Origin: Ascidia mentula
Taxonomy: Eukaryota > Chordata > Ascidiacea > Phlebobranchia > Ascidiidae
Reading direction: 5' to 3'
Length of the DNA: 64,000 nucleotides
NCBI GenBank assembly: GCA_947561715.1
Contig: OX387203.1
Coordinates: 1,674,001-1,738,000 of the forward strand
The notes beneath the pieces were generated by a model. That model made no database searches. It was given only the letters and a program-made list of their open reading frames with translations, and had not been told where the DNA came from. The position numbers and the translations under genes are program-made. This document shows positions 14,619 to 60,765 of the stretch, piece after piece. How positions within the stretch are numbered: the first letter of the stretch is position 1; each line of letters begins with the position of its first letter.

Positions 14619-15492
14619 GATAATACAAGCTGCCTACTGAATCCTATACAACAGTGTGTATTTTGGGCATTCCTTGCCCAAACATCTGGTCAAAACTGTA
14701 CAAAGGCTTAAAATTAACAATGTTGCATGCTGCAAAATATTCTACAAACGCGAACGCAATTTAAAGTTAAGCTTACGTGTTTAACCTAGCCCTCATATAT
14801 GCACCTACGCCAGGAAAATGTTTGCCGGTGCGTAGGCTGTAATCACCTCACTGCAATGCGGAACTGTTCGTATTGAGCGTAATGGTATGACAGCCATCGA
14901 CGGCAGGAAATTCACTGTAGGCGTATATTATGATTGTCTGCATTTAACTCATTAAAGAAAACACAAGTATGTTAGTAATATGATATAATCAGCATTCGAC
15001 GCGTTTGAATCGCAAGTCTGCGGTCAAAGCAACCAATGTGTTATAACCTGGTTAATTTGTCACATGCAAACTTAGTCTTGTGTTGGCAACTTTGCCTATT
15101 TTCTATGTTAGGCTACTTTAATATTAGGTCGCTGAACAATGGTTTGTTATACCATCCTAGCAAAATATCCCTCAACGCATCATAGATGCCTTTGGCAGAC
15201 AGAACAAATTTGACAAAGGCCAGTCTGGTGTCGTGTTGCCGTTTCGGAATGTTTGTCTCGGGTGGAACCCAGTCAAGCGTTTAGGAGAAATTATGGTGTT
15301 ATAATGTTGCAAATAAACACCTCTGGATTTTGGGATTCGACAAACTGTTGCAGCATTACTTTCCTATTTGTTTGAATAAAAAAAGGATTGCTCTAAATTC
15401 CGCATCATGTTGCTTAATTTATTTCATCCCTAAGTACTCTGCCCTCATCCGCTGTTTCAAGCGCGCGCAAAGACGATTTGTTAAATTTTATT
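14619..15492. other. Upstream region of NTase-TPR A; no gene seen
   Basis: Noncoding, repeated almost base for base at 36341-37214. It should contain the minus-strand promoter of gene A and the 3' flank of the remnant second gene. No open frame of note is conserved between the two copies. Confidence 0.6.
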
Positions 15493-33670: not shown

Positions 33671-36340
33671 TTAAAGTAAAGGAAATAGCTTACTACTAAT
33701 CACAGCAAAAAAATTTATATTATTATTATTTTTATAAGCCCTGCAAACTTGATCTGCTTTCCAACAATAAATTCCCAACCACTTTTCGCATTCTGCAACC
33801 CTTTCTATGTTGCCAGTAAATGTAAAAATCGCCTTAGCTTGTGCAAGGTTTTCTCCGGTCTGATCCAGTGGCCGGTTGTGGATGCAGCACAATCCGATGG
33901 TGACAAACATATTGGCAACATTTTCATCTCCGATTTCGTTTTTACTGTTTTTTCTTCTCTTATTCAGTTCCTTTTCGTAGCTCATTACGGCATAGCTGTG
34001 AAGACCGATTTCCTTATAGCACTGACCCAACAATAGATTGCACAACGAAACTAAGACGCCTGTATTGTCTCCTTTCTCCAAAGTTTTTCTGTTTTTCTTC
34101 ACGATTTTCATTACAAGCGAGTAAGCGTATCCGGTCTGAAATATCTTTTCTGCTAACAACACGCTGTCTTTCGCTAGTTGAAATTGCCTTGTTTCATTTT
34201 GATTCACCGTCAATCGATTTACAATTTCTCGTGGTGGTATGTCAGAGCAACTTTTCAATTCTCTAAGCGCATTTGTGGCACCATTTTCGGCTTCTTCCTT
34301 CTCTCGCCCAAGTTTTAAGTACTTGAACATCGATACGGCTTCTCTGTAGTGTGTGTGACTGCTTTCAAAGTTCTTGGCATCAAAACTTGCTTTACCAAGC
34401 CACAAATTGCATTCTGCGTAATGTCGATCCAACCAATCGTTGCCCTTGTACGATTCGATATCGTTTAGAATGGAACGAAAGTAAAACTCTGACTTAAGTG
34501 TTTCTGAATTGGAGCAAAGCATGCATTTGCCGATGTAGAGCTGACAATCAATCTGATATACGAAAGGGTATTCCTTAGTTTTGGCCTTGTTGTACGCCAA
34601 AGCGAAAAATGGCAATCCACGGTCTGGTTGCTGTATTTTATAGTAACAATAACCCCATAAATGGTACACCTCAGGTGTTAAGATGTTTTCCAGTTGACTT
34701 TTCTCGTGTGACTTTTCCACGGTCTCAATCGTTTGTATAGCTTTAGAGAAGTTTTGCATGATAGCGTGCCACATTGCCTCTCTGAATGGTCCGTAATTTT
34801 CCAGTTGTGGTATCGTTCGATCACACACAGCTTTCAACACTATTTGTTGTACCCGGGTTACAGTTTCAAAGTACCGCACATAACCCCCACTCCCCATAAG
34901 CTTTTCCACTTGCGTCGTCCCACCGTCGATTGTATTCAGTATGACGTCACGCAGGCTGCGGTGTTTGCTGTAAACCCTCAGTCTGACTTCGCAGGCCACA
35001 GCCAAAGCAAACAACATGTCAGATTCAGTAGTTTTACCAATAAAACCATGTTTGTGAAGAGCTTTAACTTGAGCAAACGATGACGTGCCGTAAACTTTGT
35101 GAAACCGAGACAGCTCGGCTACGGAGAGGGTGGCAGCTCGATATATCATACGTTTCATGTTGAGTTGAGCGTTTTCAATCAAGGCGTCTGAATTGAGAAT
35201 GGGATTAAAGGTTCGGACGTCTTCGTGTACTTGCCAATGAAACGGATGCTTCTGAAGAATTGGAGTAAACCTGCTTGGTTGGTAATCGTGGTCAACAACC
35301 TCCTGTGAAACGTATTCCACAACACCCTGCTCAAAGCGCTTGTAAAGTTCGAAATCGCCTGCAACATAACACACCTTGGTAAGCATATCACCCAAGTGGT
35401 AGCCGTTCTTCAAATCCACATCCGCTTGAAGATATTCTAGCATTTCGCTCAAGGGCCTAATGAGCTCTGTTTTCCACGGTCGTCCTGGCGTCTCTGGTCG
35501 ACCAATGGGAAGCTTACACGCGTAAGGAACCAACCCGTCAAAACACAAGCCACGAGGGGTGTAAGCATCGTAAAACCAGTCGTACCTTTTGTCCATATAG
35601 TTGTTTAAGTAGGGCAGGTTCATTATTGCAACCATGGTTTCGCTCATGTTGACTATGATAAGTTGAAATATAACTGAAACCCAACGAAAATACTCTAAAG
35701 TATTGTCCCCATTTACACCTTCCTCGAGAACAATAATGTTTTCAAAGTCAGAGTATGGTGTGATTTCCTTTCTTGCCAAAGACCCCATTCCAACCAACAC
35801 ATAACGACAAGGTGGGGTACCCATAATTTCCACACAGCGGCCCATTATGTCCTTCATAATCGCTGTAAAATCAGATGCTATTTTTTTCTGTAGAGATTTT
35901 ATTACTTTGATCTTCTCTTGGGCCAAACGTTCAAACACGACGTCGTCACAGCTCGGAATTGGACGAATTTTTTCTAAAGCTTGTCGTACATCTTCTCTGA
36001 TGATGTTCACTTTCTGAAAGTAGGGTTTCCATTCTTCAGTGAGGTCACAGTCCCTTCGTGAAGCTTTCGCAAGCTTTAAAACATGGTTACATAGCTCTTT
36101 GAGTTCTTTAATAACGTCGGTATTAACAGTAATATTTCTCACAAGCGCTGCATTGAGCAGTACGCCACTTCGTATCAATGCAACCTTGTCGGGGCTACGC
36201 TGTCTATAGAGTTTTCCAAGTTCATAAAAAATCTTTGAGCTTTTACCAATGTCAGTTTCTCTGCCCCTTTCGTCACAGCTCGACCTTAATTCGTCACATA
36301 GCGTTTTCTCCGACGCATCAAATTTATCCAGTGACTCCAT
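33671..36340 (-). CDS. NTase-TPR protein B, 3'-truncated sister of A
   Basis: Open frame of 889 residues, about 98-99% identical by eye to residues 1-868 of gene A. It has an intact NTase (G186-S187, D198-F199-E200) and the first part of the TPR array. A deletion matching unit A 10367-12013 (about 1.65 kb) removed roughly 420 C-terminal residues. The joint is filled by a short AT-rich stretch near 33706-33735 that adds about 21 unrelated residues before the stop. The enzyme half is unaffected, so a shorter protein with fewer TPRs may be made. Whether it is functional or an early pseudogene cannot be told from sequence; the few amino-acid differences show no obvious relaxation. Confidence 0.8.
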   Translation of the reverse strand: MESLDKFDASEKTLCDELRSSCDERGRETDIGKSSKIFYELGKLYRQRSPDKVALIRSGVLLNAALVRNITVNTDVIKELKELCNHVLKLAKASRRDCDLTEEWKPYFQKVNIIREDVRQALEKIRPIPSCDDVVFERLAQEKIKVIKSLQKKIASDFTAIMKDIMGRCVEIMGTPPCRYVLVGMGSLARKEITPYSDFENIIVLEEGVNGDNTLEYFRWVSVIFQLIIVNMSETMVAIMNLPYLNNYMDKRYDWFYDAYTPRGLCFDGLVPYACKLPIGRPETPGRPWKTELIRPLSEMLEYLQADVDLKNGYHLGDMLTKVCYVAGDFELYKRFEQGVVEYVSQEVVDHDYQPSRFTPILQKHPFHWQVHEDVRTFNPILNSDALIENAQLNMKRMIYRAATLSVAELSRFHKVYGTSSFAQVKALHKHGFIGKTTESDMLFALAVACEVRLRVYSKHRSLRDVILNTIDGGTTQVEKLMGSGGYVRYFETVTRVQQIVLKAVCDRTIPQLENYGPFREAMWHAIMQNFSKAIQTIETVEKSHEKSQLENILTPEVYHLWGYCYYKIQQPDRGLPFFALAYNKAKTKEYPFVYQIDCQLYIGKCMLCSNSETLKSEFYFRSILNDIESYKGNDWLDRHYAECNLWLGKASFDAKNFESSHTHYREAVSMFKYLKLGREKEEAENGATNALRELKSCSDIPPREIVNRLTVNQNETRQFQLAKDSVLLAEKIFQTGYAYSLVMKIVKKNRKTLEKGDNTGVLVSLCNLLLGQCYKEIGLHSYAVMSYEKELNKRRKNSKNEIGDENVANMFVTIGLCCIHNRPLDQTGENLAQAKAIFTFTGNIERVAECEKWLGIYCWKADQVCRAYKNNNNINFFAVISSKLFPLL

Positions 36341-37641
36341 GATAATACAAGCTGCCTACTGAATCCTATACAACAGTGTGTATTTTGAGCATTCCTTGCC
36401 CAAACATCTGGCCAAAACTGTACAAAGGCTTAAAATTAACAAAGTTGCATGCTGCAAAATATTCTACAAACGCGAACGCAATTTAAAGTTAAGCTTACGT
36501 GTTTAACCTAGCCCTCATATATGCACCTACGCCAGGAAAATGTTTGCCGGTGCGTAGGCTGTAATCACCTCACTGCAATGCGGAACTGTTCGTATTGAGC
36601 GTAATGGTATGACAGCCATCGACGGCAGGAAATTCACTGTAGGCGTATATTATGATTGTCTGCATTTAACTCGTTAAAGAAAACACAAGTATGTTAGTAA
36701 TATGATATAATCAGCATTTGACGCGTTTAAATCGCAAGCCTGCGGTCAAAGCAACCAATGTGTTATAACCTGGTTAATTTGTCACATGCAAACTTAGTCT
36801 TGTGTTGGCAACTTTGCCTATTTTCTATGTTAGGCTACTTTAATATTACGTCGCTGAACAATGGTTTGTTATACCATCCTAACAAAATATCCCTCAACGC
36901 ATCATAGATGCCTTTGGCAGACAGAACAAATTCGACAAAGGCCAGTCTGGTGTCGTGTTGCCGTTTCGGAATGTTTGTCTCGGGTGGAACCCAGTCAAGC
37001 GTTTAGGAGAAATTATGGTGTTATAATGTTGCAAATAAACACCTCTGAATTTTGGGATTCGACAAACTGTTGCAGCATTACTTTCCTATTTGTTTGAATA
37101 AAAAAAGGATTGCTCTAAATTCCGCATCATGTTGCTTAATTTATTTCATCCCTATGTACTCTGCCCTCATCCGCTGGTTCAAGCGCGCGCAAAGACGATT
37201 TGTTAAATTTTATTGTGGATTTTGTTATGATCAGAAATGGTAACGTCATGACTTGGACAATTATTTACATCAATCAAAGACTCACATTATGTACTTCATA
37301 AAATGTCACTGGAGTGACATGTAATTCACAAAACAGGTATTAAGTACCTTTTATTGATTCGTTTTTAATTATGAAACTGGCAAAAGACATGTTAAATTAA
37401 GCAAAATACAGTTAAAAATTTTTTTTTAGTGAAATCTGTAAAAATACAAAATCTGGTTGTGTTTAATTGCATATGTTACAATATGTACATGTTCATTTTC
37501 CATGACTTTAAAATTGTCTTTGGTTTTAAAATATATGTAATACTAAATGGTCTTAATTTTTTCACTTGTACGTTGGTTGTTGCCACACAAAATAATTCTG
37601 ATGTATGGTAATACAAATGTGGTTGATCAACCATGTACCAA
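36341..37641. other. Upstream of NTase-TPR B and 3' flank of gene C
   Basis: No gene seen. It matches unit A 14619-15490 plus 16682-17120 and preserves the empty target site of the foldback element. TTTATT near 37350 gives a minus-strand AATAAA about 290 bases past the stop of gene C. Confidence 0.6.
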
Positions 37642-40600
37642 TCATTTCTCAACCAGAAATTCTGACTGACAGCATTTAATCCATGCTTCGCACTCTTCCA
37701 CCTTCTGTTTGGATTCAGGACTTTGAATTGCTTTCCATGTTGTTTTTGCAAGTTTAAATTGGTTTGCTGCTTCCTCATGGTCAAGGCATCTCATGTAGCA
37801 GAGGCCAATATTAAAATAGCAGTGTGCTGTCTCTGCATTTCCCCCGCTGCATTTTTTTGCTTGTTGTAGAAGTTCAAGTTCCCTTTGAAAACTTTGCAGG
37901 GCTTCTTCCACTTGGTTCATTTCAAGTTGTGTTTTTCCAATCCATTTTAAACAATTTACACATTTTTGTTGGTGTGGAGCATCAATACTGGTTAGCCATA
38001 TCGCTTGCACCTCCTGCAGATAATTTAAAGTGATTCTGTGATTACCCAAATGAAAGTGACAGATTGCCATGTTAAATTTGCACTTTGCTATTTTTAACTT
38101 GTTGACTTCAGTGTCCTCTGCTTCATTTCGTACATTGAGTTCTTTTTCGAAAGTCTGTAAAGCTGGTTGATGTTCGTTGTTGGCTATCAAACTTTTACCA
38201 GCTTTCTTGAGTTCATTGGCCCGCTCCTGGATTTTGACAGAGTTTGAAAAGCTTTTTCGGATGCTTGTTGCCATTTTAAAGTTATCCAAAGCTTCTTTTT
38301 GATTTCCAATCTTAACAAAGCAGCATCCAATATTGTAGTAACATGTAGCTATCTCTTTGTTGGAACTTTCACCTCTTAGTTTCTGTTTTCTTTCCTTAAG
38401 CTCCATTTCAAAGTGCTTGAGAGCTTGATTGTACTTTTCCATTTGCAGCAGTATCTTTCCAATGGACATTAAACAATTAGCACTTGTTTCATGCTGTGAC
38501 TTAAATTTCATTAAGTTTATTAAAACATATGACATTTTAAATTCTGACATAGCTGCAACATAATTATTTGCCTTTTGCTGATTGATTCCATATTGATAAA
38601 TCTGTTGTGGTACAAAAGGTATTAGGCCTTGCAAATTGGCTATTGGAATTCCCTGTGCTTTCTCTTTTATTTCCATCACTTTTCCAAGGACTCCAGCTGT
38701 TTCTTTGCCATGTTCTTCCCAAGAATAGTCAGTTTTGTGTTCACTTGGAGCCAAAAAAATTTCTATTGCATTGTCAATCTTGTCAAATAATTGCAATAGC
38801 TGCATCAAATTACTTTGGTTGTCTGGTAGTTTTGAAAATTTACCCAAAGCCATTGTGCTTTGGAGTATATCTATGTATGCCATATGTGCATTAAACTTGG
38901 GGTTGTCCGACTGTTTAAAAATAGAACGGGCACTCTGTAAGCTCTCATTCGCTTTTTGATCTTTCCCCAATATGGAAGCCATTATACCAGCTCCTAGATG
39001 AGCTTTGCCCACATCTGGATCTCTAGTTTCATCATTAGCTTTCTTTCTTGTTTGTTCCACAACCTTTAAAAACATGGTTTCTCCCTGTTGTAAATCACCC
39101 ATGTGAAACAGCAACTTTGCCTGATTCAGTTTAAGGTGTGGACCTTCATAACCCTGCGGAAACCCAAGTTTATTAAATGTTTCCATGGTAAGATTGAAAA
39201 AATGTTGGCTCTGCTGAAAATTTTTCTGGTAATAATGACAGACAAACAAGGTGTAGTACACAGAGGCATGCAATTTTGTGATAAGATGTGTTTCATAATC
39301 TCTGAAATAGCCGGTTTGGAGCATGTCAAGTGCTTTTTCACTGTATTCCAATGCCTTTGCCAAGTCTGGATTTTGTTGCCTAACTAAACTTTTTGCTATT
39401 AACACCAAAATAAAAACTGCTTCCTCCTTGTTTTCCAAAAGGTTTTTAACAGCGAATGCTTGCTTCAAATGGTAAATTGCTTTCTCAAAGTCATGTAAGT
39501 AAAAGTAGGAGTAACCCAGAATGTTGTCAAAAGTTGCATCAGTTCCAAATTCAGTGCTTCCTCCTGCAAAGAACACAGTTTGGATTAAATATTTTTCAGT
39601 TGTGTCATTGATTAATGGTAAAAATTGTTGTATTTAATAAGCTTGCGAAGGCCGTATCTACATTTAACTCTAGAAAAACCAGCCTTTGTTCAAAATTACA
39701 CTCTATGGATGAGAAGAAACCTCAAGTCTTCATCAATTATAAAGCTATGCTAATAGTTGTTGTGTAACTTATAATTTATTTTTGCATACCCTGGTATGGT
39801 TCCCAGTCTTGAATTACTTTCATGTGTCTTCCTGTGAAATAATTGATGAAGAGTTGAAGTTTTTTCTCATCCATGGAGTGTAACTTTGGGGCAAGTTTGT
39901 TGTAAACACTTTTTTCAGCAATTAAGAGGTCCAACTTATCACAGATGTAGGACTGCAGTCTAATTGTAGCCAAAAATAAACTATCAACTTGCTCCTCATT
40001 TAAAACTTCAATCAACTTTTTGTCAATGCGATTCATGTCATATTTTTGCAAACTTTCTTCTAGGCCTTCACTTTCATCAATGATAAGCAGAAGATCATTT
40101 TGCTCCATTTGCTTATTGGTATCCATCATGTAAGCTTGCAAACGAGCCTTACAAACAACTGCAATACCCAACAGAAAGCAGTCCACGTATTTTGGGGGTA
40201 TTTTGTTTTGATTGCCAAGCTCCTCAATTATGGTGAAAGATGAAAGATTTTTAATACCATAAAGCCTCCCTAATGCTGATATAAGTAAAGTCAAACTCCT
40301 GTACACTAGCCGCTTTATGTCCATTTTGCGAGATATCCCTTGTGATATAATGTTATAAAATATATTGAACTCCATTAAATTTCCTTGCAGGTGTTGAATT
40401 GTTTCCGCCATAAGTATCTTGCTCTCCTTCTGTGCATTATTCTCCACAAACTCTTGTGCTCCAGCCTGGAATAACTCATAAACATCCTTGTTGCCTGACA
40501 CAAAGCATGTTTTTGTGAGCATATCTGCTAGTCGCTTGTCATATCTCTTTCCACAAATGGTAGAATCCAGCATATGTAACATATGATGTACTGGCTGAAT

Positions 40601-41590
40601 TAGTTCTGTTCTGTAAGGTTTTGATGAAGTAACTTCCTGTCTTCCAAGGGGATTTTTGCAAGCATCTGGTGCAAAACCATCAGGTGAAATGCCACATGGA
40701 GTGTAAGCATCATAAAACCAGTTGCCCTGTTTACTACCTGGAGTGTTTAAACCTGGTATTGCCATGAAACGTATGATTGTCTCACCGATATTTACCAACA
40801 CTAGTTGAAAGATGAGGGCCACACATCTGAAATGCTCCATTACTGCCATAACATCACTTTTTAGTTCAATACCATCTTCCAGAATAATTGCACTTTCAAA
40901 ATCAGAAAAAGGAGTGATTTCTTGTTTTGCAAGTGATCCCATTGCCAGAAGGGAGTATTTACATGGGGGAACTCCCATAACCTCAACAGAAAAGGTCATG
41001 ATTTCATTCATTAAGTCCGAATAATTTTCTGTTATTGCAAGCTGCAAATCTTTTATTTTTCTAATCAAGTGGTTCTTCCAGTTTTCATCCCTTTTTGTAT
41101 CCAGTTGCTGTAAGACCTCTTTCACTCGTATTCGAGTGTCATTTAGATTTGCTTTGCACAGTTTTCCTTGTGCCATTAAATTTGAACCCTTCTTTTCAGC
41201 TCCAATTTTGTCTAAAACATTTGTGCAAAGCCTGACAAGGTCAGCTTCAATATTTGGGTCATTTGGCTTTCTTACAATTGCTGCATTTAATAAAACTGCA
41301 CTTCTAATCCAAGCAATTTTGTCCAGATTCCTAACTTCACAGATGCTTTGATGTTTATTCAAAACATCACCTACATGTTCCTGGATATGGGCAAGTTCTA
41401 TGAGAATTTTTACGGATTGATCCAGGTCTCTCTCTTTTCCATTGGCATGACATGTTGTTCTCAACTTCTGGCCATGCATATGCTGAAAAGCAGTAATGAC
41501 TCCAATATGACTTTGGGATGTTTGTGTTGTCTTTCTTGCTTTTCCATAAATAAGGTCAGTGCACTCAAAATAGTTGCCTAAATTCTGCAT
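37642..41590 (-). CDS. NTase-TPR protein C, two exons
   Basis: Exon 1 41590-39790 encodes about 600 residues and exon 2 39563-37642 about 640; the donor GG|GTATGC and acceptor TTTGCAG|GAGG join in phase. The NTase motif is G218-S219 ... D230-F231-E232 in MGSLAKQEITPFSDFE. Exon 2 is a TPR array, with repeats such as TCYYNIGCCFVKIGNQKEAL and HCYFNIGLCYMRCLDHEEAA. Size and domain order match gene A, although A has no intron at this border. The 3' half is duplicated as the broken remnant at 17121-18117. Exon 1 is almost identical to exon 1 of gene D up to about residue 480, while exon 2 is only about two-thirds identical. The catalytic residues are intact; the substrate is unknown. Confidence 0.85.
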
Positions 41591-42780
41591 GGTTGCATTT
41601 GTCTAAATTCATTGTGCAATTATTAATAGTTTAAACCATATTGCCTTACTTCATAGAAATTGTGTAAAGCACATTTTGCTTTTCTTCTTGTGCATAAATT
41701 TTAAACTTGATTTTTAGTTGACAACTTCCTGTGAAATGTACATTATTTTAAAGTGATTGTGAAGCATTCTGAACAGTGCTGGCTAACAAACAAAAATAGC
41801 CTTCAAATTTTATCCTTTTGCAGGTAACCTGTGGCACCAAGGTTACTATTTAACAAAAAATCAATAGTGAAATGAGGTGATAAAATTGTTTGTACATTGT
41901 TTTGTTTGCTTTTGCCATATGTTGTTTAATGAATATGTGGTAAAATATTGTTGTTCAGTCTTTTTAAACTTGCTATACTTGATGGCAGTTGCTTTATAGC
42001 GAAATTGATCTTTTACGTTCTGTATAATCATTTTAACCAGGTATTAGACTGATATTAGTAGTAGGTTGCTCGCTTCACAGCCAACCTGTTTGCACTCGTC
42101 AAATATTTTTTGTGACATAATCGATTTGTGTTGTTTTCAGCTAGGACCAACCAATGATTTTGGCCAAATGAAATGCATCTGGGTTACCATGCAATGTCAT
42201 CAACATTCTTGGACTGACATTGGATAATTTTGATGACAACTCTATCATAATTGAACACATGTGAAGTTTGGACGTTTGGGTTTGGAATGTAATGAACTTT
42301 GTAAGTACACATTTGTTACCTTAATAAACCATTGATTAATTTCCATCACAAACAGATTAGGCCAAAAGTGAGATATTTATACAACTGTACTATCATATTG
42401 ACACACTGAATTTCCTTTTTCTAATACTACTGTTTATACTTATGTACACATAGTGATAAATGAAACACACATAAATGTTTTTACAGGGGTCAGCCAAACA
42501 AACATACAAATATTGTGGAAAAGCAATGTATATGTTGGATATGCAATAGTAATAAACATAAAGCACTATTAGTTTAGTTAACTACTCCAGTAAGTTGCAG
42601 AAAACTAGCATTGATCAGGTGACAAGTCATTGCACTTTAATGGAAAGTCAAGACCACAATTACTATTCCAGTGCACTAAAACATAAACTTGAGTACATTT
42701 AATCTACAAATATATGACGTGCTTTGTACACAGAGTTGACACTTTAATATACCATTAGGTATTTGTGTGCAAATGATTTT
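41591..42780. other. Intergenic between NTase-TPR genes C and D
   Basis: About 1.2 kb with no open frame or repeat that I can support. It should include the promoter of gene C and the 3' end of gene D. Confidence 0.6.
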
Positions 42781-45700
42781 TCAAGCAAAAAGTTCTGACT
42801 GACAATATTCAATCCATATTTCACACTCATCAATACTTTGTTTGAATTCAGAACTTTGCATTGCTTCCCATGTTATTTGTGCAAGTTTGAAATGGTTTGC
42901 TGCTTCTTCATGGTAAATGCATCTCATGTAGCAAAGACCAATATTAAAATAGCAGTGTGCTGTGTCTGCATCTCTCTGACTTTTTTGTTTTTCTTGTTGA
43001 TGAATTTGTAGTTCCTTTTGAAAACTTTGTAAGGCTTCTTCCACTTGGTTGATTTCAAGCAGTGCTTTTCCAATCCACTTTAAACAACTTGCTTGTTTTT
43101 GTTGGTGTTGAACACCAATATATATTTCTTGCAACTCCTGAAGGTAATTGACTGTGATTTCATGATTGCCGAGATGGAAGTGACAGATTGCTATGTTAAA
43201 TTTACACTTTGCCATTTTCAACTTGTTGCTTTCAGTGTTTTCCATCTCTGATCTTTTTTCAAGTTCTTTTTCAAAACTCAGTAAAGCTTCTTGATACTCT
43301 TTGCTGGATAACAGGTTTTTTCCAGTCTGCTTGAGGTTTTTAACCTGTTCTAAAATTTTGGAGAATTTTGAGATGCTGTTCTGCATACTTGTTGCTGTTT
43401 TGAAGCAATCCAAAGCTTTCTTTTCATTTCCTAGCTTAGCATAGCAGCAACCAAGATTGTGGTAGCATGATGCTACCTCACTGTTCATATTTTTACCTCT
43501 TAGTTTCTTTTTTCTGGCATTGAGCTCCCTTTCAAATTGATGCAGGGCCTGCTTATGTTTTTGTAAATGCAGCAGTATTTTGCCAATGGACATTAAACAA
43601 TTTGCACTTGTTTCATGTTGCTTAATTTTTGCCATATTTATTGTAACATATGACAGTTTGAAGTTGGCCATGGCAGCAATTAATTTATTACTGTGTTGCA
43701 GACTTGTTGCCAATTGAAAGAGTTGCTTTGGTACATTTTGCATGATGCCCTGCCAATTACCAATCCGAAGACCGGGTGCCATTCCTCTGTTTTCCATAAG
43801 CTGTGGACCAATCTTTTCCAAGTTTTCTGCAATTTCCTCACTACTGTTTGGCCATGAGGAATCATATTCACTTTCGCTTGGTGTCAAAAAAATATCCAAT
43901 GCGTTGTCAATTTTTTCAAATAATTGCAGAAGTTCCGAAAAGTTGTTTTGGTTGTCTGCTAATATTGATTGAACGTCGGCGAACTTTTGCAGAGTCATAA
44001 CATGTTGAACCAGTTCCATATAAGCTCTCTGTTTGTTAAATTTGGTGTTACCTGACTGCTTGAAGATAGAGTCTGCGTTTTTAAAATTCTCACTGGCCTT
44101 TTCGTCCTTTCCCAACATGTTAGCAACAAGACCAGATGCAAAATAAGCATTAGCCACATCTGGGTCTTTTGTTTCATCATCAGCTTGTTTTTTCCTTTCA
44201 TCAAGTGATTGTAAAAACATTTTTTCCCCTTCCTCCAGATCACCGGCTTGTAACAGCAGCTTTGCTTCATTCACGATCATGTCTGAACCTTTCAAATTCT
44301 TGGGAAGTTGATTGATTTTTTCTTGTGCTAAATCAAAGAACTTTTGACTTTCCTGGAAATTCTTCATGTAATAATAACATGTAAACAGCATGTAGTACAC
44401 ACAAACATGTATCTTTGCTATCAGGTCTTTTTCATAGTCCTGGATGGAGCTAAAATGTAGCAAAACAAGGGCTTGATTGCTAAATTCCAATGCTTTCCTT
44501 GCATTTGATGTATTCTGTTTGATCAAGCACAATGCTATTAACACCAGTATGATCACTGGTTCTTCCTTATTTTTTTGGTGAATCTTTGCTGAAAAAGCCT
44601 GCTTTAAGTGGTAAATCGCTTCATCATAGTTGTGCAACATGAAGTGAGAATAGCCCAAAACATTTTCAAAAGAAACATCATTTGTCGTTTCTTCGCTTTC
44701 ACCTACAAGTCAAAAATAGTTGTGTCTTTAAAAGAGTTTTGTTATGCTTAAAAACAATTTACCCAAAAGTATAAAGTTCTTAACTCAAATCAATATTTCG
44801 TTTGTCTTTACAAATTTAATGTAGACCTTCTGAATTAATACCTTTATTTGTGTTGTATTCATGCCAGTCTTCAATTACATTTCTGTGCCTCCCTGTGAAA
44901 TAGTTTATGAGTATTTGAAGTCTTTTTTCATCTAGATTGTGCAAATGTGGTGCAAGTGAGTTAAAAATACTTTTTTGGGCAATTAGGAGGTCAAACTTAT
45001 CAACAATGTAGGATTGTAGTCGGATTGTAGCTGAAAATAAACAATCAACTTGCTCCTCATTTAACATTTGAATCAGCTTTTTGTCAACTCGATTCATGTC
45101 GTAGTTTTGCAAAGTTTCTTCTAGGCCTTCACTTTCGTCAATAATGGACAGAAGATCATTTTGCTCCATTTTCTTATTGGTATCCATCATGTAAGCTTGC
45201 AAACGAGCCTTACAAACAACTGCAATACCCAACAGAAGGCAGTCCACATATTTTGAGGGTATTTTGTTTTGATTGCCAAGCTCCTCAATTATGGTGAAAG
45301 ATGAAAGATCTTTAATACCATAAAGCCTCCCTAATGCTGATATAAGTAAAGTCAAACTCCTGTACACTAGCCGCTTTAAGTCCATTTTGCGAGATATCCC
45401 TTGTGATATGATGTTATAAAATATGTTGAACTCCATTAAATTTCCTTGCAGGTGTTGAATTGTTTCCGTCATAAGTATCTTGCTCTCCTTCTGTGCATTA
45501 TTCTCCACAAACTCTTGTGCTCCAGCCTGGAACAACTCATAAACATCCTTGTTGCCTGATACAAAGCATGTTTTTGTGAGCATATCTGCTAGTCGCTTGT
45601 CATATCTCTTCCCGCAAATGGTAGAATCCAGCATATGTAACATTTGATGTACTGGCTGAATTAGTTCTGTTTTGTAAGGTTTTGATGAAGTAACTTCCTG

Positions 45701-46666
45701 TCTTCCAAGGGGGTTCTTGCAAGCATCTGGTGCAAAACCATCAGGTGAAATGCCACATGGAGTGTAAGCATCATAAAACCAGTTGCCCTGTTTACTACCT
45801 GGAGTGTTTAAACCTGGTATTGCCATGAAACGTATGATTGTCTCACCGATATTTACCAACACTAGTTGAAAGATGAGGGCCACACATCTGAAATACTCCA
45901 TTACTGCCATAACATCACTTTTTAGTTCAATACCATCTTCCAGAATAATTGCACTTTCAAAATCAGAAAAAGGAGTGATTTCTTGTTTTGCAAGTGATCC
46001 CATTGCCAGAAGGGAGTATTTACATGGGGGAACTCCCATAACCTCAACAGAAAAGGTCATGATTTCATTCATTAAGTCCGAATAATTTTCTGTTATTGCA
46101 AGCTGCAAATCTTTCATTTTCCTGATCAAGTGGTTCTTCCAGTTTTCATCCCTTTTTGCATCCAGTTGCTGTAAGACCTCTTTCACTCGTATTCGAGTGT
46201 CATTTAGATTTGCTTTGCACAGTTTTCCTTGTGCCATTAAATTTGAACCCTTCTTTTCAGCTCCAATTTTGTCTAAAACATTTGTGCAAAGCCTGACAAG
46301 ATCAGCTTCAATTGTAGTGTCATTTGGCTTTCTTACAATTGCTGCATTTAATAAAACTGCACTTCTGATCCAAGCAATTTTGTTCAGGTTCCTAACTTCA
46401 CAGATGCTTTGGTGTTTATTCAAAACATCACCTACATGTTCCTGGATATGGGCAAGTTCTATGAGAATTTTGACGGATTGATCCAGGTCTCTCTCTTTTC
46501 CATTGGCATGACATGTTTTTCTCAACTTCTGGCCATGCATATGCTGAAAAGCAGTAATGACTCCAATATGACTTTGGGATGTTTGTGTTGTCTTTCTTGC
46601 TTTTCCATAAATAAGGTCAGTGCACTCAAAGTAGTTTGCTATTGTAACCATTTTTTTAGTATGCAC
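42781..46666 (-). CDS. NTase-TPR protein D, two exons
   Basis: Exon 1 46666-44842 (NTase half) and exon 2 44702-42781 (TPR half) join in phase (donor AAAG|GTATTAA, acceptor TTGTAG|GTGAAAG), giving about 1250 residues. It keeps MGSLAKQEITPFSDFE, with the catalytic D-F-E. Exon 2 has TPR units such as HCYFNIGLCYMRCIYHEEAA. It lies head-to-tail with gene C. Its exon 1 differs from C at about 15 of the first 480 residues, but the last 100 residues of exon 1 and all of exon 2 are far more diverged. The N-terminus is ambiguous between M at 46666 and a second M five codons on; gene C starts differently just at the boundary of similarity. Confidence 0.85.
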
Positions 46667-47836
46667 ATGTACCTTAAATTAAACATAACTTGTAGCATTT
46701 GTCTTGTTTCTTTAAGAAATGAAATTCTTTTTCGTATTACTAAAAATTAGCCTGTTTACCTCTCATATTTCCTTTTGATTTAAATGATATCTTGATGCAG
46801 GTATTTGCTTTAGCTTTAACCAAGCTCTGTCCTGTTTTACAGTGTCTCTCAGATCTGTGTGCTTTGTGACAAATTTATCCATTATTGAATAGGGTGACGT
46901 TGTCATAAAAATTGTTCTTCTTCTCTCTCTATTTGACTTGCCAAGTCTTTTAAAGTTCTTGGTGTAATACATTGTTAAGTAAATGTGCACCTCAACTTAA
47001 CAATAGGGTCTCAGTATATTAACATGGCACAAAGTGATGGGCTATATCCCCCTCTGTTTGTGATTCTTTTTCACCAGCCTATTGGCAATTATGACAGTTG
47101 ATGATATTTCATCTTTGAGTAACCATCTTTACTAATTTAAAGCTTTCACTAATAAGCCCTGATTTAAAGCTGATATATGTTGATTAATAAACTCCAAATT
47201 CCCTTATATTTTACACACTCGTGTATTTGTACAGGATTAAAGCAAAATGCTTTATAAAGCAATTTTGATGATGATGGAAGTGGGCAAATTATTGTACAAT
47301 TAACATATTTACAAACAGTTACTTGTTTATGACAATTTTTTCATAGGAAAGGTGGTATTCCACATGGTACAATGAGTTCATCATATTATGTTGTGCAAAT
47401 TTTGTTTGTGTGGTGTATTTAAAAGCATAGCAGAATATTAATTTTTCTCGTGATATTTATTTTGCCTACAAGTTTTATACATGTAGTTATGGTACTACTT
47501 CAGTCATTACCTCTCATTATTAATGACAGTTTTGATTTAGAGACCAGACACACAACCATTATGTATGGCTTTCTTGCATGGATAGAAAATGGAAATGGAA
47601 TGCAAATGCCAAATGAAAAGCATCACTTCATGCATATGCCACTCCGGAAAAATGATATTGTTCAGTCAAATGGAAGTGGAACCAACAATAAAACTGTGTA
47701 AGTATTAAGTAAATAAAATTGTTTGGTGCTTCGTCTGACGAGCATCTATTCATAACTGTTTGGTTTGCCAGCAAAAGATGTATGAGGCCAAGGTAAGGGT
47801 ATTGTTTACTTAGTGCAAACCATACTGTGTAAACAG
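46667..47836. other. Intergenic between NTase-TPR genes D and E
   Basis: No recognisable gene. Open frames at 46763-46990 (-) and 47450-47701 (+) have no family resemblance or splice context that I can support. Confidence 0.5.
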
Positions 47837-50800
47837 TTAGGGTGCTTTACATTCAGCAATAAGTGCCTCGCACCGCTTGATTGTTTCATCAGCTTCGGGA
47901 AAAACCTGTTGTCTGTAGTGAAGTTCTCTTTTGAAGTACAGCAATGCATCAGCATATTTTCCCAATCTTTTAAAGCTGTTACCAATACCATGTCTACAGT
48001 CACAAACGACATCAACATACTTTGACTGAAAGCAGCTGGCCAGCACCTCAAGCAGTTTGAAAAGTTTAATGCGCATGTTTTGGTCTACTGCAAACTGACA
48101 CATAAACAACAACTGATGCATGATGTCTGAGTTTACCTTCATACCAGTGCCGTTTTCAAAGGCTACTTTGAGTTGTTGGGATATAGGTGATGTTGTTATG
48201 TTTCCGACCATCAGTTCAATTTCAAAATTTCTCATTACTTGCATGAGGTTGTCAATGGCATCAAGATGTGGCATCTCAACCACATCTAGTTGATAAAATT
48301 CCAGCATTTTTTTCACGTATCCAAGCAAACTTAACCACTCCTTCCCTCTGAAGTTGTCAATCTCTCCGATCACGTACAGGTGACAATCCAGCACTGTTTG
48401 TAGAACTGTCTGGACTTTACCGTGGAACGTTTCACTCGGTTCTGTGACATTAACCCTGACTGGCATCTTAATCTCGTCAAGGAAATCTGTTATAAATTGT
48501 TTAAACTCTTCTGCCTTGGAATGTATGGCAGGTTGATTCAACTCTGAAGGATTTAATATATCCTGAATAAGATGCAGAGAGTCGTACATCTTTTGGCAGA
48601 ACGTGTATATTTTCTTTCTCACATCCGCAGTGATTTTGTTGTCCCTCTCACGAAAATCAGCAAGAACTTCATCTTTTTTCCCCGTGAACATGGACAGTGC
48701 AAGGTAAGGCACCACGCTGGCCATCGTTACCTCCTGGGCGTGCATGAATCTTAACCCAAAGTTCTTTTGGGCATCGTCGATGTTTCCAAGAAGTAGATTT
48801 TGAAAACCAATGTTCTCGTAAAGCAACTCTAAAAAGTAATGATCGTTGTAGTTTAAACTCAGCAAAATATACACATAAGCTAAGATGATATCGACCTATT
48901 TGTTAGCCTAGGGAAATACGTTGCAAAGCCGAATCCTAAAGGTTGGTTTGTTTATTCCAGACACCACATTTCGGTATACCAGGAACGCAGGGGTCACTAA
49001 ACTACGGAACAAGGGCTGGGATCAGGCCCTCATAGCCACTTTATTCGGCCAGTGGGCCTCGAGCCCCCAAAACAAGAACATTTTTTGCACTGCCAGACAA
49101 AATCTCGTTGTTTTTAAAATCAGATCCGGATTTTTTGAAATGTGGAGTTATTGCTTTAAAACTCCCCTTACCTTCTGCAACATGAATCCGTGTGAGTCGG
49201 TAACGATAGTAATCTAACAACTCCCTCCGGATTCCCAACATCTCTTCTACCGCTATACCGCCACCTTGTGGTTTTAATGGATCAAGTAGCATTTGTACCA
49301 GCTCCCCGAGCTTTTCCACAGTCTTGAACGACTCCACAATGGTGCTCATCGGTATTTCGTTCGTTATTCTTTCCTCGGCTTTACCTCCTTGGTTTGTAGC
49401 TTTGAAATGAAAACCACTTTTCTCGTTTTGTGTTGTCACGATGTCTGCTTCACCTTCGGATTGCAAGTACAGCCTCAACCTTGTTTCATAAACCAACGCC
49501 ACGGTTTGAAGTATCTTCTCTGCACTTCCTTTAGATATGCTCGTGGTAAGCGGGTCAAGAAGCTCTTGGGCGATACCTAGTGGAGTAACTGCCTTCAACC
49601 CAAGTAAAAATCCAAGCGCTGACATATACTGGGACATGGTTCTGTATAGGAGTCTTTTAATGTTGTAATCATTTGTGAAGCTAGATTCAAACATTTTTGT
49701 CAAGTTAAGGTTTTCAAGGTCTTGGGCGATTACTCTGGTGGCTTGCTTCTTGTTGGCTCTTTGATGTTTCGTCACCTGTTCCTGGAAGTCAACTTGGATG
49801 GCTTCGTCCCCGGCAACAAAACACGTTTTGGTCAAAATATCGTCGAGAAAGTAGCCGTTTTTCTCAGCCTTTTCTCCCTGCAGGTACTCGAGCATTTCGC
49901 CTACAGGTTTTATCAACTCCGTAGACCACGGTTTGTTTTCAGTCCATTCAATTCTCCCCAGAGGATTTTTACAAGCATGCGGGGAAAACCCATCCGGTGA
50001 AATACCACAAGGGGAATTGTCGTGAAACCAATCGTCATCTTCATCATTGAGATAAGGAATGTAAGCGAATCTTATAATGGTCTCTCCCATGTTCACCAAT
50101 ATCACCTGGAAAAATGTGGCCACCCACCTCCAGTATTCCAATATCTTTTCGTAATCCTCATTGTTTTCAACACCATCCTCCAAGAGAATAATACTCTCAA
50201 AATCAGAATATGGAGTTACTTCCATTCTTGCAAGAGATCCCATTCCCGCTAAAGCGTACTTGCATGGAGCATTACCCATGGCGTGGACAGAGTAGTCCAT
50301 CACTTGCCTCATAATGTTGGTGTAGTCCATGGTAATGTCTTCTTGCAATGATTTAATTTTGTTCACTCGCCGTATTCCTTGTATATTCTTCCATGCTTCG
50401 AAGTCTAGGTTTTGTCCAGCTTTTTTACGCATTGTCTGCGCATTTTCCAAAGCGCGTTTTGCCGCCTCAACGAGGTCAGTTTCCTTGCTTGTTTCGAACC
50501 CATCTTTCCCGGCTTTTCGTATCAAATCTTGACACATTTCCTGTAACTTCGTTTTGACTTCCTCCGCATTAGCGGGCTTTCTGATTATTGCAGCATTGTA
50601 CAGCACTGCACTTCTCATCCAAGCTAACTTTGCCTTCTGTTTCTTCAATGTATCATTGCATTCATGGTAAAAGTTCCCAAGCTTCTGCTGTACACGACCG
50701 AGTTCATATATAACAATTGCTGATCTTTCTGGTCGTATTTCAGTTCCGTTGGGGTAACAGATTTTCCTCAGATCTTTGGCCAATTCTCTGTGCGCATTTT

Positions 50801-50840
50801 CCAACTGATGCTCTTCTGTGTATTTGTCGTTCATTGCCAT
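47837..50840 (-). CDS. NTase-TPR protein E, two exons, short TPR half
   Basis: Exon 1 50840-49172 and exon 2 48828-47837, joined in phase (GAAG|GTAAGG, TTTTTAG|AGTTGC). The product is about 890 residues, against about 1250 for C and D. The NTase motif is MGSLARMEVTPYSDFE, with G201-S202 and D213-F214-E215 counted from the chosen start. Exon 2 is helical with weaker repeats and ends in one clear TPR-like unit (GIGNSFKRLGKYADALLYFK). I chose the M at 50840, followed by A-M-N-D-K, because it lines up with gene A; the frame is open further upstream to 50900. It is the most diverged member and the one closest to the caspase cluster. Confidence 0.82.
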
Positions 50841-51064
50841 TATTCTTTTGCTTTTAACTATGGTTACTGCTATGCTGAGTCTCTGTAATGTAGTGATCAT
50901 GTTTTAATGCACCGTCCCATATGGTTTTTATTGCCCATGGGCGTTGAAGCGTTGTTTGCTCGTTTGACGTCACAAGTAAATATTTACCTTACAAATGCTG
51001 CGCACGCTTTGCTGTGATGCCTGTCTGGAAAAGTTTAAGGAACTCATAACTGCATAAAGCAATG

Positions 51065-54343: not shown

Positions 54344-57300
54344 TTAGTTGTCTGTTGAGCCACCGCTGTGGGGCTCATCCTTTCCAGATGTTGACTGTTC
54401 AGCAAAGTAGACTCTTTTGCGTAACTGGCTCGTCACGGTCGGAAGGCGAAGTCCTTTGTCAGCCATTTCCTTGTTTACTTTTATGAGTATCTAACCATAA
54501 GACCATAAAGGATTTTCATCAACGTCGGCCATTTTTACAGATTTAACTTTGACCCAGCATGCGCGTCAAACAGTAAATCTAGTGAAACTACTTGCATATT
54601 TCACGAGGAGATACAATGACACAGCATAGCTAGATGGTGTATTTTGTGACACTGGTGAACTGTTTGCTCTCCATCAATATAGTCTACGAATTAGTGCGAT
54701 TCTCAGTTTTGTCCTAATTTAACTAAGCTTACCTCAAGGAGGTCCGCCTTGTCTTTATATTCTCTCAACTGTTTACACAGCGTGTCAACGAATATGGTTC
54801 TTTTTTTGTCTTCAGTCATTTCTGCGAAATAAGTTGCTCACAATCTACAGTAGCATTTATTTTATATCTTGGACGTTGCGATACTGATGTGATAATAATT
54901 ATATTGATGTCGAACATAATACATGCACTGGAAACTGTACATAGTAAAACGGTTGTCTAGGCGACAAGAAGTTTTGTTTTTATAAAAAATTTAAATACCT
55001 TCTGTTTCCGAATAAACAAAAATTGTGTCAGCCGATTGCGGGATAAAAAGTTTGCTACTGGGATTTCCACCACCGCTTTTTGTTTGTGTAGAAGGTGGTG
55101 CCTGTTAAAAACAAAGCATCGAAATGCATATATATATAGATGCGCCGCTTGTTTTCTGTGTCATGTACACATTTTCTCTAATTAAATCTAACGCATTGAT
55201 CAAACCTGCACTATGAAGATTTTTGGTATTTCAAATAATTTATTGCAATTGTTTCCATTAAAAAGCTCAACAAATGTGTTTAGGGGGTAAGGCTGTTTTT
55301 TTCCATCGCGAAGCTTTTCGTGTGGACCGCTGGTACTTTTAATAAAACAGACGAAACACTTTTGGCCTTCGCACTTCTTGTTGTCCGAGACTGCAAGAAA
55401 ATAAGCGGATAAGGTTGAAAAGGCAAGATATATGTGCACTTACCAGCAATATCTGTCATCTCTTCTATTGACTTTTTTTCGTGAAAGTTTACATCGAATT
55501 TCAATTCCTCTCCTGTCTTTTTCAAAAGTTTCACATCACCATCTTCCTAACAAGTTGCGAAACAAAAACTTTTAGATTCTACGTAAAATAAATTTCTAAA
55601 GCTAAAAACGGAGTGTTTTAAGGAAACCATTCATTTCATCCCTGCCTGTTTTGCATTTAAAGGAAATTTAGCTACTTGCGCTTTCAAGATTTTATTTGTT
55701 GTCTGTTTGGTGCAATTTAAAATGTAATGCTGAGTGGATTATAGTTTTAATATAAATTTAGGTAAATAAGCAAAATCCACCGATGCAACTTGGACTATAG
55801 TTTAAATATGCATACAGGTAAATAAAGAAACCCAAACCTCGTCGCAAAATATGTAAAACAGGCCAGCGTCGTTATGGGACGTACTGTATGATCTAGCAAA
55901 AGAAATAAGACAGTTTGGCGGCTGCAAAAGGCACATTAGAACAACTTACTTCAGAGTTTTTGGTTGTTGGTCTATAACCCGTAACTTCAAAGGAGACTTC
56001 AATCTATGCGAAAAAGTGGGCATCTGGGGCCCATCTTCACGGCAACTTTGTATTGCTGTCTCGTTGTTAGCGTATGTGAACACCTGTTAAATACTCAATG
56101 AAACAACAACAACTTAGAACGAGAAAAGGCGAATATGCCTACATCTGTAATGTTACTATATTCTGTATTTTCGAGAGCTGCACACAAATTTCTGATGTAA
56201 ATGGATCCTTCCTCAACATCTGTTGCGTAGAAACCTTCAGAATAAATTTTTCAGTTACAATTATTTGCAAATTTGTTTAGTGAAATAATCTACCTGGACA
56301 AGTTGCATGGGCCACTATAAAATCTTCTTTCAATGGTACTTTAAGTACTTTTGCCTGTCCTCCATTAGGTTCTATTTGCTCTTTACTTAATGGTGATTTA
56401 AGTTCCTCGTCCACCCCTCTGCAAGCCTGTGGAAAACTGAATTTATTTCATGTGGTGTCGGTTTGCATAACTAAAAAATGGATTTATTGATCTAATTCGT
56501 TGTACATTTTTGTAATCAATTTTAGGAAAAAATTAGGTATTTGGTATCAAACGTAATTGTTATGTATAAATAAGTGATTGTTTTTGTCTGAAGCTGTACA
56601 TCGCTGTGCAAATATACGCGTATCTGTATTTTTTCGCCTGTGTGAAATGCCCAAATTGTACTATGTTGCAATGTAAAGAGTAGGCCTACGTCACAAAAGC
56701 GGTCACTGATGCACAGAAGTCAATTTTACCGTTAAATGAGCATGTATGCTTGTGCTGTTGACGAATTTGCGCGTGTTTGGGTGCAGTTTCAGTGGGGTGC
56801 TTTTCAGAGTTTTTATCATGTCCTTGATAATGTTAGACTTACATTAAAGATGCATTTAACTTATGGAATAAAAGTGTAGTGTCAGATACTACTGGCAGGT
56901 TGAAACGAGATAGCAATTTGTTTTAATAAACCCATTGACTTCAAATCTATAATCTTCGTTCCAACCCAACAGATATGTAACATCTCTGTATCATAGATAT
57001 TAGTAAATAACATATAAAAGCCGCATCAATAATAATATTAACCCACATCAATAATAAAAATCTTTGGTATTCCTTCTGGGCTATTACTGAACTTATCTAA
57101 AACGTCGGAAAGTGCGTATTCCTTGGAATCAACGTCCAGTAAAAGATCGCCTTCTACACCATGTGTGGTGATAACCACAACAAAACATTTGAAATTACTG
57201 TGGTCCATTTTGGCGTCTGAAAAAGGGACTAAATAGTTATTTTGCTCATCGCTCTTATTCAAAAGTAATCTGCCTTACAATTCTCCAACTGAGAAAAAAT

Positions 57301-57556
57301 AAAATCTTTTTTTCTGTTGTCAAACACTTTCACTTTAAATCCGAGGCCTTCTCCTGCAGTTTTGAGATTAGTTGCATCTGTTTTCGTTCCCCGAAGTGGA
57401 TATTTTCCTTTAAAGTTCTATATAAAATCAAACAAATATATCAATATATATATAAATTAATGTTAGAAAGTGCTTTGACAAACAAACCATGGTATAAAAT
57501 ATGACCATATGCCCCATCCTCCCTTCATTTTGCTTCATGTCATCCTTGCGCGCCAT
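54344..57556 (-). CDS. Double caspase: active domain fused to a dead domain
   Basis: Twelve exons: 57556-57486, 57417-57279, 57216-57047, 56426-56294, 56234-56143, 56083-55950, 55892-55838, 55546-55444, 55390-55206, 55101-54999, 54821-54733 and 54490-54344; phases agree throughout. Domain 1 has no long prodomain. It holds the p20 features LRGTKTDATNLKTAGEGLGF, catalytic His in ITTHG, catalytic Cys in IID|ACRG split by an intron, and a p10 starting EEGSIYIRNLC. Domain 2 has the caspase fold pieces (CFVCFI, PKIFIVQ, FVDTLCKQL, TSQLRKRVYF), but SHG is replaced by TSG and QACRG by QAPPS, so both catalytic residues are gone. The two domains are joined by a 57-base intron, 55949-55893. Reading into it gives TAA at once, so retention would release domain 1 alone. 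The arrangement resembles caspase-8 with c-FLIP in one chain. Confidence 0.78.
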
Positions 57557-59125: not shown

Positions 59126-60765
59126 TTAAAGAAGATGAAACTTTTTGCGCAAACAATCTATAACTTCAGGCTTGTGTAGTCCGATAACTTTTGACATTCT
59201 CTCGTTCACATGATGTACCACCTGAAAAACAGACAAATTCATGTTCTATTGCTGTTGCCTCCAGACATTGCTACTTGTAAATAGAACTGATTTTCTTAAA
59301 TCAAACTACACTACGTGATTTTACGCCGGAAGATCAGTTCTATTTAAAAAAATACTTAATACGTTTTCCGTATTTAAATTACTTTATAGTCACCACAAGG
59401 TGGAATTCTTTGCTTGGCCGTTTGGTCAGCAAAGTCGTCTAAAAGAGTCACACCCAGCTGCACTGATGAGACCTTATTGGTCGAAACAGTGGCCATCTGT
59501 ATGCAGCTTACACAGTTCAATCACTTGTTTATATTTTTTTACTACAAAACCTGGTACATACACCATAGACGTCAATTTTGGTAAATCGTGAATGAAGTAT
59601 TTGTTCGCATAGTGTTGCAAGAAATAATGATCCTTGCTCATCTGAAGTAGGTTCTGTTAAAAAAACTAGAAGCGTTCACGCCAAGGAAAATCCAGTGAAA
59701 TTAAACTTAAAGTAAGAAAGTAAGATGGGTTATTTGCCGTTAACATTTAAAACTTACATGTCAGTCAATATCATAATCAATCCACCTGAAATTTTAAACG
59801 CATGTTTTTCGGTTTTGGCAGATAGAAACTCTGTAGGACTTCATAATCACACAAGCAGTTAAATAAGGGTAATTTCCGAATTCTTTTCGAGTATGTGCAG
59901 TGAAAACAGCTAAAGTACTTACCTGGTGATTTTGAGTACACGATCAATGTGTCACGTGGTTCGCGAACAGGGGTGTTTGGTTCGGAGATCAGTTTTGTTT
60001 TATACATTCTGCGGTACGGTGCCTAGTAAATAAACAAATGCCCAGCAATGATCTTTAAAAGTGGAAACAAAAAACATCCCTAAACGTCTGTTTACACAGT
60101 TAAACACTAAACGCATGCTGTGCAATTTAACCTGAATTATAAAAATTTTAGGCTTTCCATGTAATTCTTGGAAATCATCAATAAATGAAACGAGATTGTC
60201 CAGCTCATACGTCTCTCCACTTCCATCGTACAAAAGACCGTGCTCTTTTGTGTCAGTTATGATTACACACATAACATAGTCGCAGGTTTCGAGTTGTGGT
60301 TTTAGGTCTTTGAAAAATAAATTAACCTAATTTGAGTAAGTTTCAAAAATGTTACAAAGCAGACTTTACAAACGTTAAAATGCACCGTTGACAAGTAAAT
60401 CCACAATACCCTGATCTAACTTTTTAAAATACCGATAATTTTTTGGCGCATTTGTGCGAATGTGGTCTTTTCATGGTGTGCTGTCTTAAAGTTCAACTTC
60501 CTTCCGACTCTTAGTATGTCATCTACATCAGTAGTTTTCTACATATAACTTACGTGCTTAACTTTTTGCCACTGAAGCACAAACCTTTGGCATAATTTTT
60601 CCTTACCTGGTTACTAAAAATGATGATGAGCCCTCCTTTTTCGATTGGATATCTAAAAGAGAGTAAAATGCGTTAAGAGTGAAGATTTAAGGTCAAATAG
60701 AATTTACTTGAGTTCATTCCTCTTTGTGAAGAGTTGATATGGTTCCTCACATTCTTGCTTGTGAT
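59126..60765 (-). CDS. Catalytically dead caspase, single domain
   Basis: Exons 60765-60708, 60652-60607, 60538-60433, 60307-60132, 60022-59933, 59653-59571 and 59221-59126. The order is the caspase order: CEEPYQLF, EKGGLIIIFSNQ (first strand), TTDVDDILRVGRKLNFKT, VMCVIIT..KEHG, PKIFIIQ|APYR, DTLIVYSKSP, QGSLFLATLCEQ (p10 start) and IDCLRKKF. A His remains in KEHG, but the catalytic Cys of QACRG is Pro (QAPYR), so no protease activity is expected. It is probably a regulator or partner of the active domain downstream. The 5' end is unsettled: an M-starting exon may lie at 60944-60858, but its donor phase does not fit the next exon. An intron near the 3' end carries a hammerhead ribozyme on the opposite strand. 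Confidence 0.72.
59456..59508 (+). ncRNA. Hammerhead ribozyme, type I, complete
   Basis: Stem I AGCTGCA (59456-59462) pairs perfectly with TGCAGCT (59502-59508). The core is CTGATGA (59463-59469), stem II is GACC-TTATT-GGTC, then GAAA, then stem III ACAG-TGGCCAT-CTGT, with cleavage predicted after A59501 (GUA triplet). Every invariant position is met. It lies in the intron 59570-59222 of the dead caspase, antisense to that gene. Type I hammerheads with a short stem III are known from metazoan retroelements such as retrozymes and Penelope-like elements; I see no such element around it. Confidence 0.85.

Follow-up and report, generated by a model that had tools for sequence, protein, structure and literature searches.

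The window analysed here is a stretch of 64,000 nucleotides from the ascidian Ascidia mentula (assembly GCA_947561715.1, contig OX387203.1, positions 1,674,001 to 1,738,000 of the forward strand), and positions are counted from its first letter. Its minus strand carries, at 57556-54344, one gene of 12 exons (copy W; Table 1) with a single open frame of 472 aa, which opens with a start codon at 57556 and whose stop codon ends at 54344. All eleven introns are GT-AG, with lengths of 70, 62, 620, 59, 59, 57, 291, 53, 104, 177 and 242 bases, in order, and phases of 0,1,0,1,0,2,0,1,0,1,0. Six exons encode each of two domains, and the phase pattern 0,1,0,1,0 is present in each half, which fits two six-exon caspase genes joined head to tail via a phase-2 intron. 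The Pfam model Peptidase_C14 matches both halves (domain 1, 2e-32; domain 2, 1.5e-21). An earlier note on this DNA, made from its letters alone, had claimed a chain of two caspase domains with ITTHG and IID-ACRG in the first and TSG and QAPPS in the second; the open frame and the C14 match in each half show this chain to be real, and all of these motifs are read in the gene model. Chance open reading frames were rejected as an explanation on the Pfam matches and on two further copies of the gene (A and E) with an equal layout.

Table 1. Features of the fused caspase-like gene (copy W) and of a related lone domain (copy H) in the window.
Feature	Position	Strand	Basis
Whole gene, copy W: fused caspase-like and dead caspase-like protein	54344..57556	-	GT-AG at all 11 introns, one stop, C14 in each half
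Exon 1: start codon, short N-terminus	57488..57556	-	copies A and E likewise begin with ATG in exon 1
Exon 2: column of caspase-7 Arg87, Leu in W (PLRGT)	57279..57417	-	gene model and alignment
Exon 3: catalytic His (ITTHG); IID at 3' end, before the cysteine exon	57047..57216	-	H88 invariant in 3/3 copies
Exon 4: ACRG with the catalytic Cys, then the intersubunit linker, which has one Asp ahead of the KEDF strand	56294..56426	-	C128 invariant in 3/3 copies
Exon 5: loop with the column of caspase-7 Arg233 (Thr or Asp in W)	56143..56234	-	gene model and alignment
Exon 6: last part of domain 1, including QMPTFSHRLKSPLKLR	55950..56083	-	gene model
Linker intron, 57 bases, phase 2, GTAAGT...GCTAG, between domain 1 and domain 2	55893..55949	-	same place and phase in A and E
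Exon 7: start of domain 2 (SYSTSHNDAGLFYIFCDE), without in-frame ATG	55838..55892	-	gene model
Exon 8: domain 2	55444..55546	-	gene model
Exon 9: domain 2, KSTSG at the catalytic His motif	55206..55390	-	gene model and copies
Exon 10: domain 2, QAPPS replacing QACRG	54999..55101	-	Q115 and A116 invariant in 3/3 copies
Exon 11: domain 2	54733..54821	-	gene model
Exon 12: last part of domain 2, including RLPTVTSQLRKRVYF, then stop	54344..54490	-	gene model
Copy H, lone dead caspase domain	59126..60652	-	five exons in one frame; last junction unsettled

No DED or CARD prodomain was found by Pfam in the modelled proteins of W, A and E, in which only C14 was above the cut-off; frames upstream of exon 1 were inspected by eye only. 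As a control, the same scan found DED twice in the caspase of another locus of the genome (L001). A prodomain inside the modelled protein was rejected on this result and on the ATG in exon 1 of all three copies.

Domain 1 has the His/Cys dyad of a caspase, as ITTHG and IID-ACRG, with intron 3 (620 bases) interrupting the second motif; the first domains of W, A and E agree without exception in His and Cys and in the adjoining residues (HG, CRG). By sequence it is a caspase fold, since the best 60 of its 198 matches in the PDB are all caspases. The residues with which caspase-7 binds the P1 aspartate are Arg87, Gln184 and Arg233 (excerpt of PMC4357240). Copy A, whose alignment with human caspase-7 is free of gaps at all three positions, has Leu for Arg87, Asn for Gln184 and Val for Arg233, and copy E has the same three residues in the alignment. 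The residues of W are Leu, Asp and either Thr or Asp, a one-residue gap making the Arg233 column uncertain; its Asp directly precedes ACRG, where caspases have Gln. An Arg/Gln/Arg pocket for a P1 aspartate was accordingly found in none of the three aligned first domains. The caspase of locus L001, which has tandem DEDs, keeps all three pocket residues.

Thirty-six caspase matches on contig C52, out of the 87 found in the genome, served as a control for the first and third pocket sites and were read by eye. With rows that do not cover a column dropped, and with some of the rows being near-copies of each other, Arg was kept at the first site in nine of nine rows and at the third in 14 of 16, both exceptions carrying Leu. 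Two near-identical caspases on this contig, outside the array described below (C52:3321113-3321241 and C52:3333194-3334186), have Leu for the third pocket Arg (VAWLN).

Caspases are cut after Asp in the linker between the large and the small subunit. This linker, counted up to the strand reading EDF, ADF or AHF, contains no Asp in A, one each in W and E, near the catalytic Cys, and three in the L001 caspase. With the residues that bind a P1 Asp replaced, domain 1 would not be expected to cut after Asp, and with a linker almost without Asp it would not be expected to become activated by Asp-directed cleavage between the subunits. Its sequence suggests a protease whose specificity has changed or whose function is being lost, and the loss of the pocket could mean that domain 1 is on its way to being dead. 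The earlier note had called this half an active caspase; the dyad agrees with that description, but the aspartate pocket has been replaced and activity is doubtful.

Domain 2 of W reads KSTSG and VQ-APPS at the corresponding motifs and has lost both catalytic residues; Cys is missing from the catalytic site of the second domain in W, A and E alike. Near their ends, both domains retain P-T-x-[ST]-x-x-L, in a region that we take to be the caspase docking strand. In a published two-domain caspase, beta6 is named as the interface strand (PMC4715348). A related lone dead caspase domain (copy H) lies in the same window, with IITDTK and QAPYRR, exons like those of domain 2 and a phase-2 acceptor at its start. 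Domain-1 exons were sought upstream of it and none were found. Judged from its exons, copy H may be either a lone pseudo-caspase or a remnant.

The genome searched comprises 195.8 Mb in 79 contigs. A profile search gave at least 87 exon-level caspase matches, most of them in clusters on contigs C52, C70 and C71; the cluster on C70 spans about 15.86-16.20 Mb. The window ends within a tandem array on C71, which extends, in continued window coordinates, over about 63351-98532. Copies A (98532-95632) and E (73555-70803), numbered in the same way, lie beyond the window and are intact. Each has 12 exons with GT-AG introns throughout, encodes 473 (A) or 471 aa (E), has two C14 stretches in Pfam and shares all eleven intron phases with W. 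The splice sites of both were chosen by hand with W as a guide, so the identity of phases is partly built in; the existence of complete open models with consensus sites is the stronger point. With the two halves of copy A as queries, all matches above 51% identity fall in the C71 array. Within it, E and C are spaced about 14.6 kb apart and B' and B about 15.0 kb, and partial dead-domain copies occur at about 64.2, 66.7, 70.0 and 84.6 kb.

Identity is 34-48% among first domains, 35-49% among second domains and 20-26% between first and second domains, and either kind shares 23-28% with the L001 caspase. Of two other loci considered for the alignment, one (L002) yielded no row and the other (L033) a fragment of just 28 aa, which was left unused. 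A tree of seven rows separates the first domains (support 99/97) from the second domains (99/98), each as a group of its own; its branches are long, and the program warned of them. It is most simply read as a single fusion that preceded the copying of W, A and E. Since first and second domains are about as far from each other as from L001, the pair may go back either to the doubling of one gene or to two older neighbours that fused.

Two recent relatives of A, B and B', have lost exons (at a 60% threshold, three in B and one in B'), which shows decay in the array alongside persistence. C, a recent relative of E, no longer has the catalytic His. Over shared exons, the comparison of A with B gave a dN/dS of 0.26 for domain 1 and 0.16 for domain 2, that of A with B' 0.33 and 0.31. 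Synonymous change was in excess, with one-sided Fisher p values of 1e-5 and 0.0014 (A/B) and of 0.0002 and 0.005 (A/B'), the two comparisons being dependent because both contain A. E against C gave 0.83 and 0.80, with no significant constraint. The point estimates for domain 2 of the partial copies F and G against A were 0.53 and 0.35, and in the comparison of H with W no exon passed. By point estimate, the dead half appears to be constrained no less than the catalytic half in the lineage of A.

Other features of the window and of the genome were recorded alongside. Five long uninterrupted frames lie on the minus strand of the window (10743-14633, 33671-36355, 39776-41602, 44816-46678 and 49041-50903). 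The last of these, the only one of the five that was scanned, matches a DUF294 nucleotidyltransferase at 4.7e-9. Inspection by eye shows the second to be a shorter near-copy of the first, and the third and fourth to be near-copies of each other. Two similar frames on the plus strand (6497-7204 and 30628-31206) end, also by eye, in a trypsin-like start, IYGGSST.IEQWPWMA; together with the near-copies among the long frames, they suggest a tandem duplication of about 22-24 kb. The pairing of cellulose synthase with a glycosyl hydrolase of family 6 marks tunicates among animals. The family 6 model has two matches in the genome, both over the cut-off, and none in 14 control genomes; the bacterial cellulose synthase model also has two, both under the cut-off, and matches 11 of the 14 controls as well. 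On C71 and C52, the two kinds of match share a strand, with that to the synthase 2.3 and 3.4 kb, respectively, ahead of that to the hydrolase, an arrangement that makes a tunicate origin probable.

The intron between the two domains of W (donor GTAAGT, acceptor TTTTGCTAG) has the coordinates, donor and phase given in the earlier note, and the stop that the note had placed one codon into it is likewise present in the gene model, where the retained intron reads K-stop. The corresponding intron lies at the same place and in the same phase in A (152 bases) and E (75 bases). In B' its donor is GTATAT, and retention would add about 14 codons before a stop (by eye). The lengths in W and E are multiples of three, and in these two copies an in-frame ATG after the stop runs into domain 2; this does not apply to A.

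The further proposal of the note, that this intron acts as a switch which gives a lone domain 1 when retained and the fused pair when spliced, draws on the K-stop and could also draw on the lengths divisible by three (57 in W, 75 in E), but we consider it very improbable. In a phase-2 intron that starts with GTAA, two exon bases and the G complete a codon and TAA follows, so the immediate stop is automatic and is no evidence for a switch. Retention stops the frame for ten of the eleven introns of W, with intron 9 stopping at the same index as the linker intron. The length is ordinary, five of the eleven introns being shorter than 65 bases, and the corresponding intron of A has 152 bases. A perfect GTAAGT donor, present in the linker intron and in intron 8 (2/11), argues for constitutive splicing. 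A stop upstream of further exon junctions marks an mRNA for decay in many animals, and the retention stop precedes five such junctions, so that decay of the retained form would be expected. The linker intron is most likely an ordinary intron and is presumably spliced constitutively. Operons with very short intergenic gaps, as well as spliced leaders, occur in tunicates, and this invites the reading of the locus as two genes in one operon, in which domain 1 ends at the TAA and a leader is trans-spliced to domain 2 at 55893. It was rejected as hardly credible, because domain 1 ends precisely at a consensus donor, exon 7 is without an in-frame ATG and the intron is in phase 2 in W, A and E.

The evidence on the catalytic state bears on two other alternatives. 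That both halves are dead and serve as a scaffold or decoy, domain 1 having mere relics of the dyad, would agree with the change of all three S1 residues in all three intact copies and with the loss of His in copy C. We nevertheless regard it as unlikely, since His and Cys with HG and CRG are invariant in the three copies despite an identity of only 34-48% between their first domains, whereas domain 2 has lost both His and Cys. That the gene is unexpressed, or decays along with its array, is quite improbable: the broken neighbours B, B' and C, the partial copies F and G and the near-neutral E/C comparison point in this direction, but W, A and E are open across 12 exons, and synonymous exceeds non-synonymous change in both A/B and A/B'.

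The gene of this tandem family is rather probably one that encodes, in a single chain, a caspase-like enzyme with a specificity other than for Asp and its own pseudo-caspase, docked in cis, and that is constitutively spliced. This explanation rests on the gene model of W, the Pfam matches, the layout of A and E, the tree, the constraint among A, B and B' and the alignment of the pocket. Domain 2 would serve domain 1 as an in-built partner for dimer formation, docking on it in the way that c-FLIP(L) docks on caspase-8, and its docking would hold domain 1 of the same chain in a competent state. As a built-in partner it would leave one catalytic site per chain. The heterodimer of caspase-8 with the pseudo-caspase c-FLIP(L) has activity, according to an excerpt of PMC7586951. 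An equally fair guess is that the effect of domain 2 would be restraint rather than activation, as the dead half of Acropora caspase-X lowered killing. Docking, activity and substrate of the fused protein are inferred.

Caspases are defined by cutting after aspartate. We tentatively consider that in a tunicate lineage a caspase may have turned into a protease with a new P1 preference, locked to a dead partner and activated without death-domain recruitment or cleavage after Asp. If true, its S1 pocket, without the two arginines and partly acidic or apolar, would belong to a caspase-derived enzyme outside the aspartate rule. Such a family would offer a case in nature for testing how the specificity of a protease shifts, and whether activation can rely on a pseudo-caspase as the only partner.

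The earlier note had likened the chain to a cis version of the caspase-8/c-FLIP pair, and this part of its interpretation stands, as a dyad-bearing and a dead domain do share one chain and recur in A and E; the intron switch that went with it is not supported. In caspase-8 and c-FLIP(L), too, a catalytic domain is paired with a pseudo-caspase without the dyad, but there the partners are encoded by two genes, both with tandem DEDs, and meet in trans (as described in an excerpt of PMC7586951), whereas W is one chain. Tandem DEDs ahead of a pseudo-caspase, which characterise c-FLIP/CFLAR, were not found by Pfam in the modelled proteins of A and E or in either half of W.

Paracaspases offer a comparison for the pocket. 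The residue just before ACRG, MCRG or VCRG, which is Asp in W and Asn in A and E, presumably occupies the same column as Asp462 of MALT1. This Asp462 belongs to the S1 pocket, on loop L4, of an enzyme that cuts after Arg (excerpt of PMC4357240). The likeness ends there, as the best 60 of 198 PDB matches of W and the best 60 of 162 of A are caspases, and in place of the three acids of the paracaspase pocket for a P1 Arg there are at most two acidic sites in W and none in A and E.

Proteins that combine a dead with a catalytic caspase domain in one chain have been published before. Caspase-X of the coral Acropora combines two caspase domains, one of them dead, in one chain, for which its authors modelled a cis pair like c-FLIP/caspase-8, and the dead half damps killing in HeLa cells (PMC4715348). 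The dead domain comes first in caspase-X and the second is typical in all respects, whereas in the W family the domain with the dyad comes first and has a changed Asp pocket. In mammalian caspase-16, the caspase domain has been duplicated within the gene, one copy is dead and a cis dimer has been proposed; the excerpt of PMC12198278 places the dead copy N-terminally and the copy with the catalytic site C-terminally, so that the order in the W family is reversed. Four caspases of Mytilus coruscus have two CASc domains (excerpt of PMC10967218). The terms 'FLIP', 'inactive' and 'two caspase' are absent from the main text of a paper on Ciona caspases (PMC10923776), and among the matches listed in the open-licence literature none was found with the reverse order, a changed aspartate pocket or a tunicate setting. 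Both published cases, caspase-X and caspase-16, are dead-first. The coral and mammalian cases, taken together with the W family, suggest that fusions of an active with a dead caspase domain may have arisen more than once in animals, in either order.
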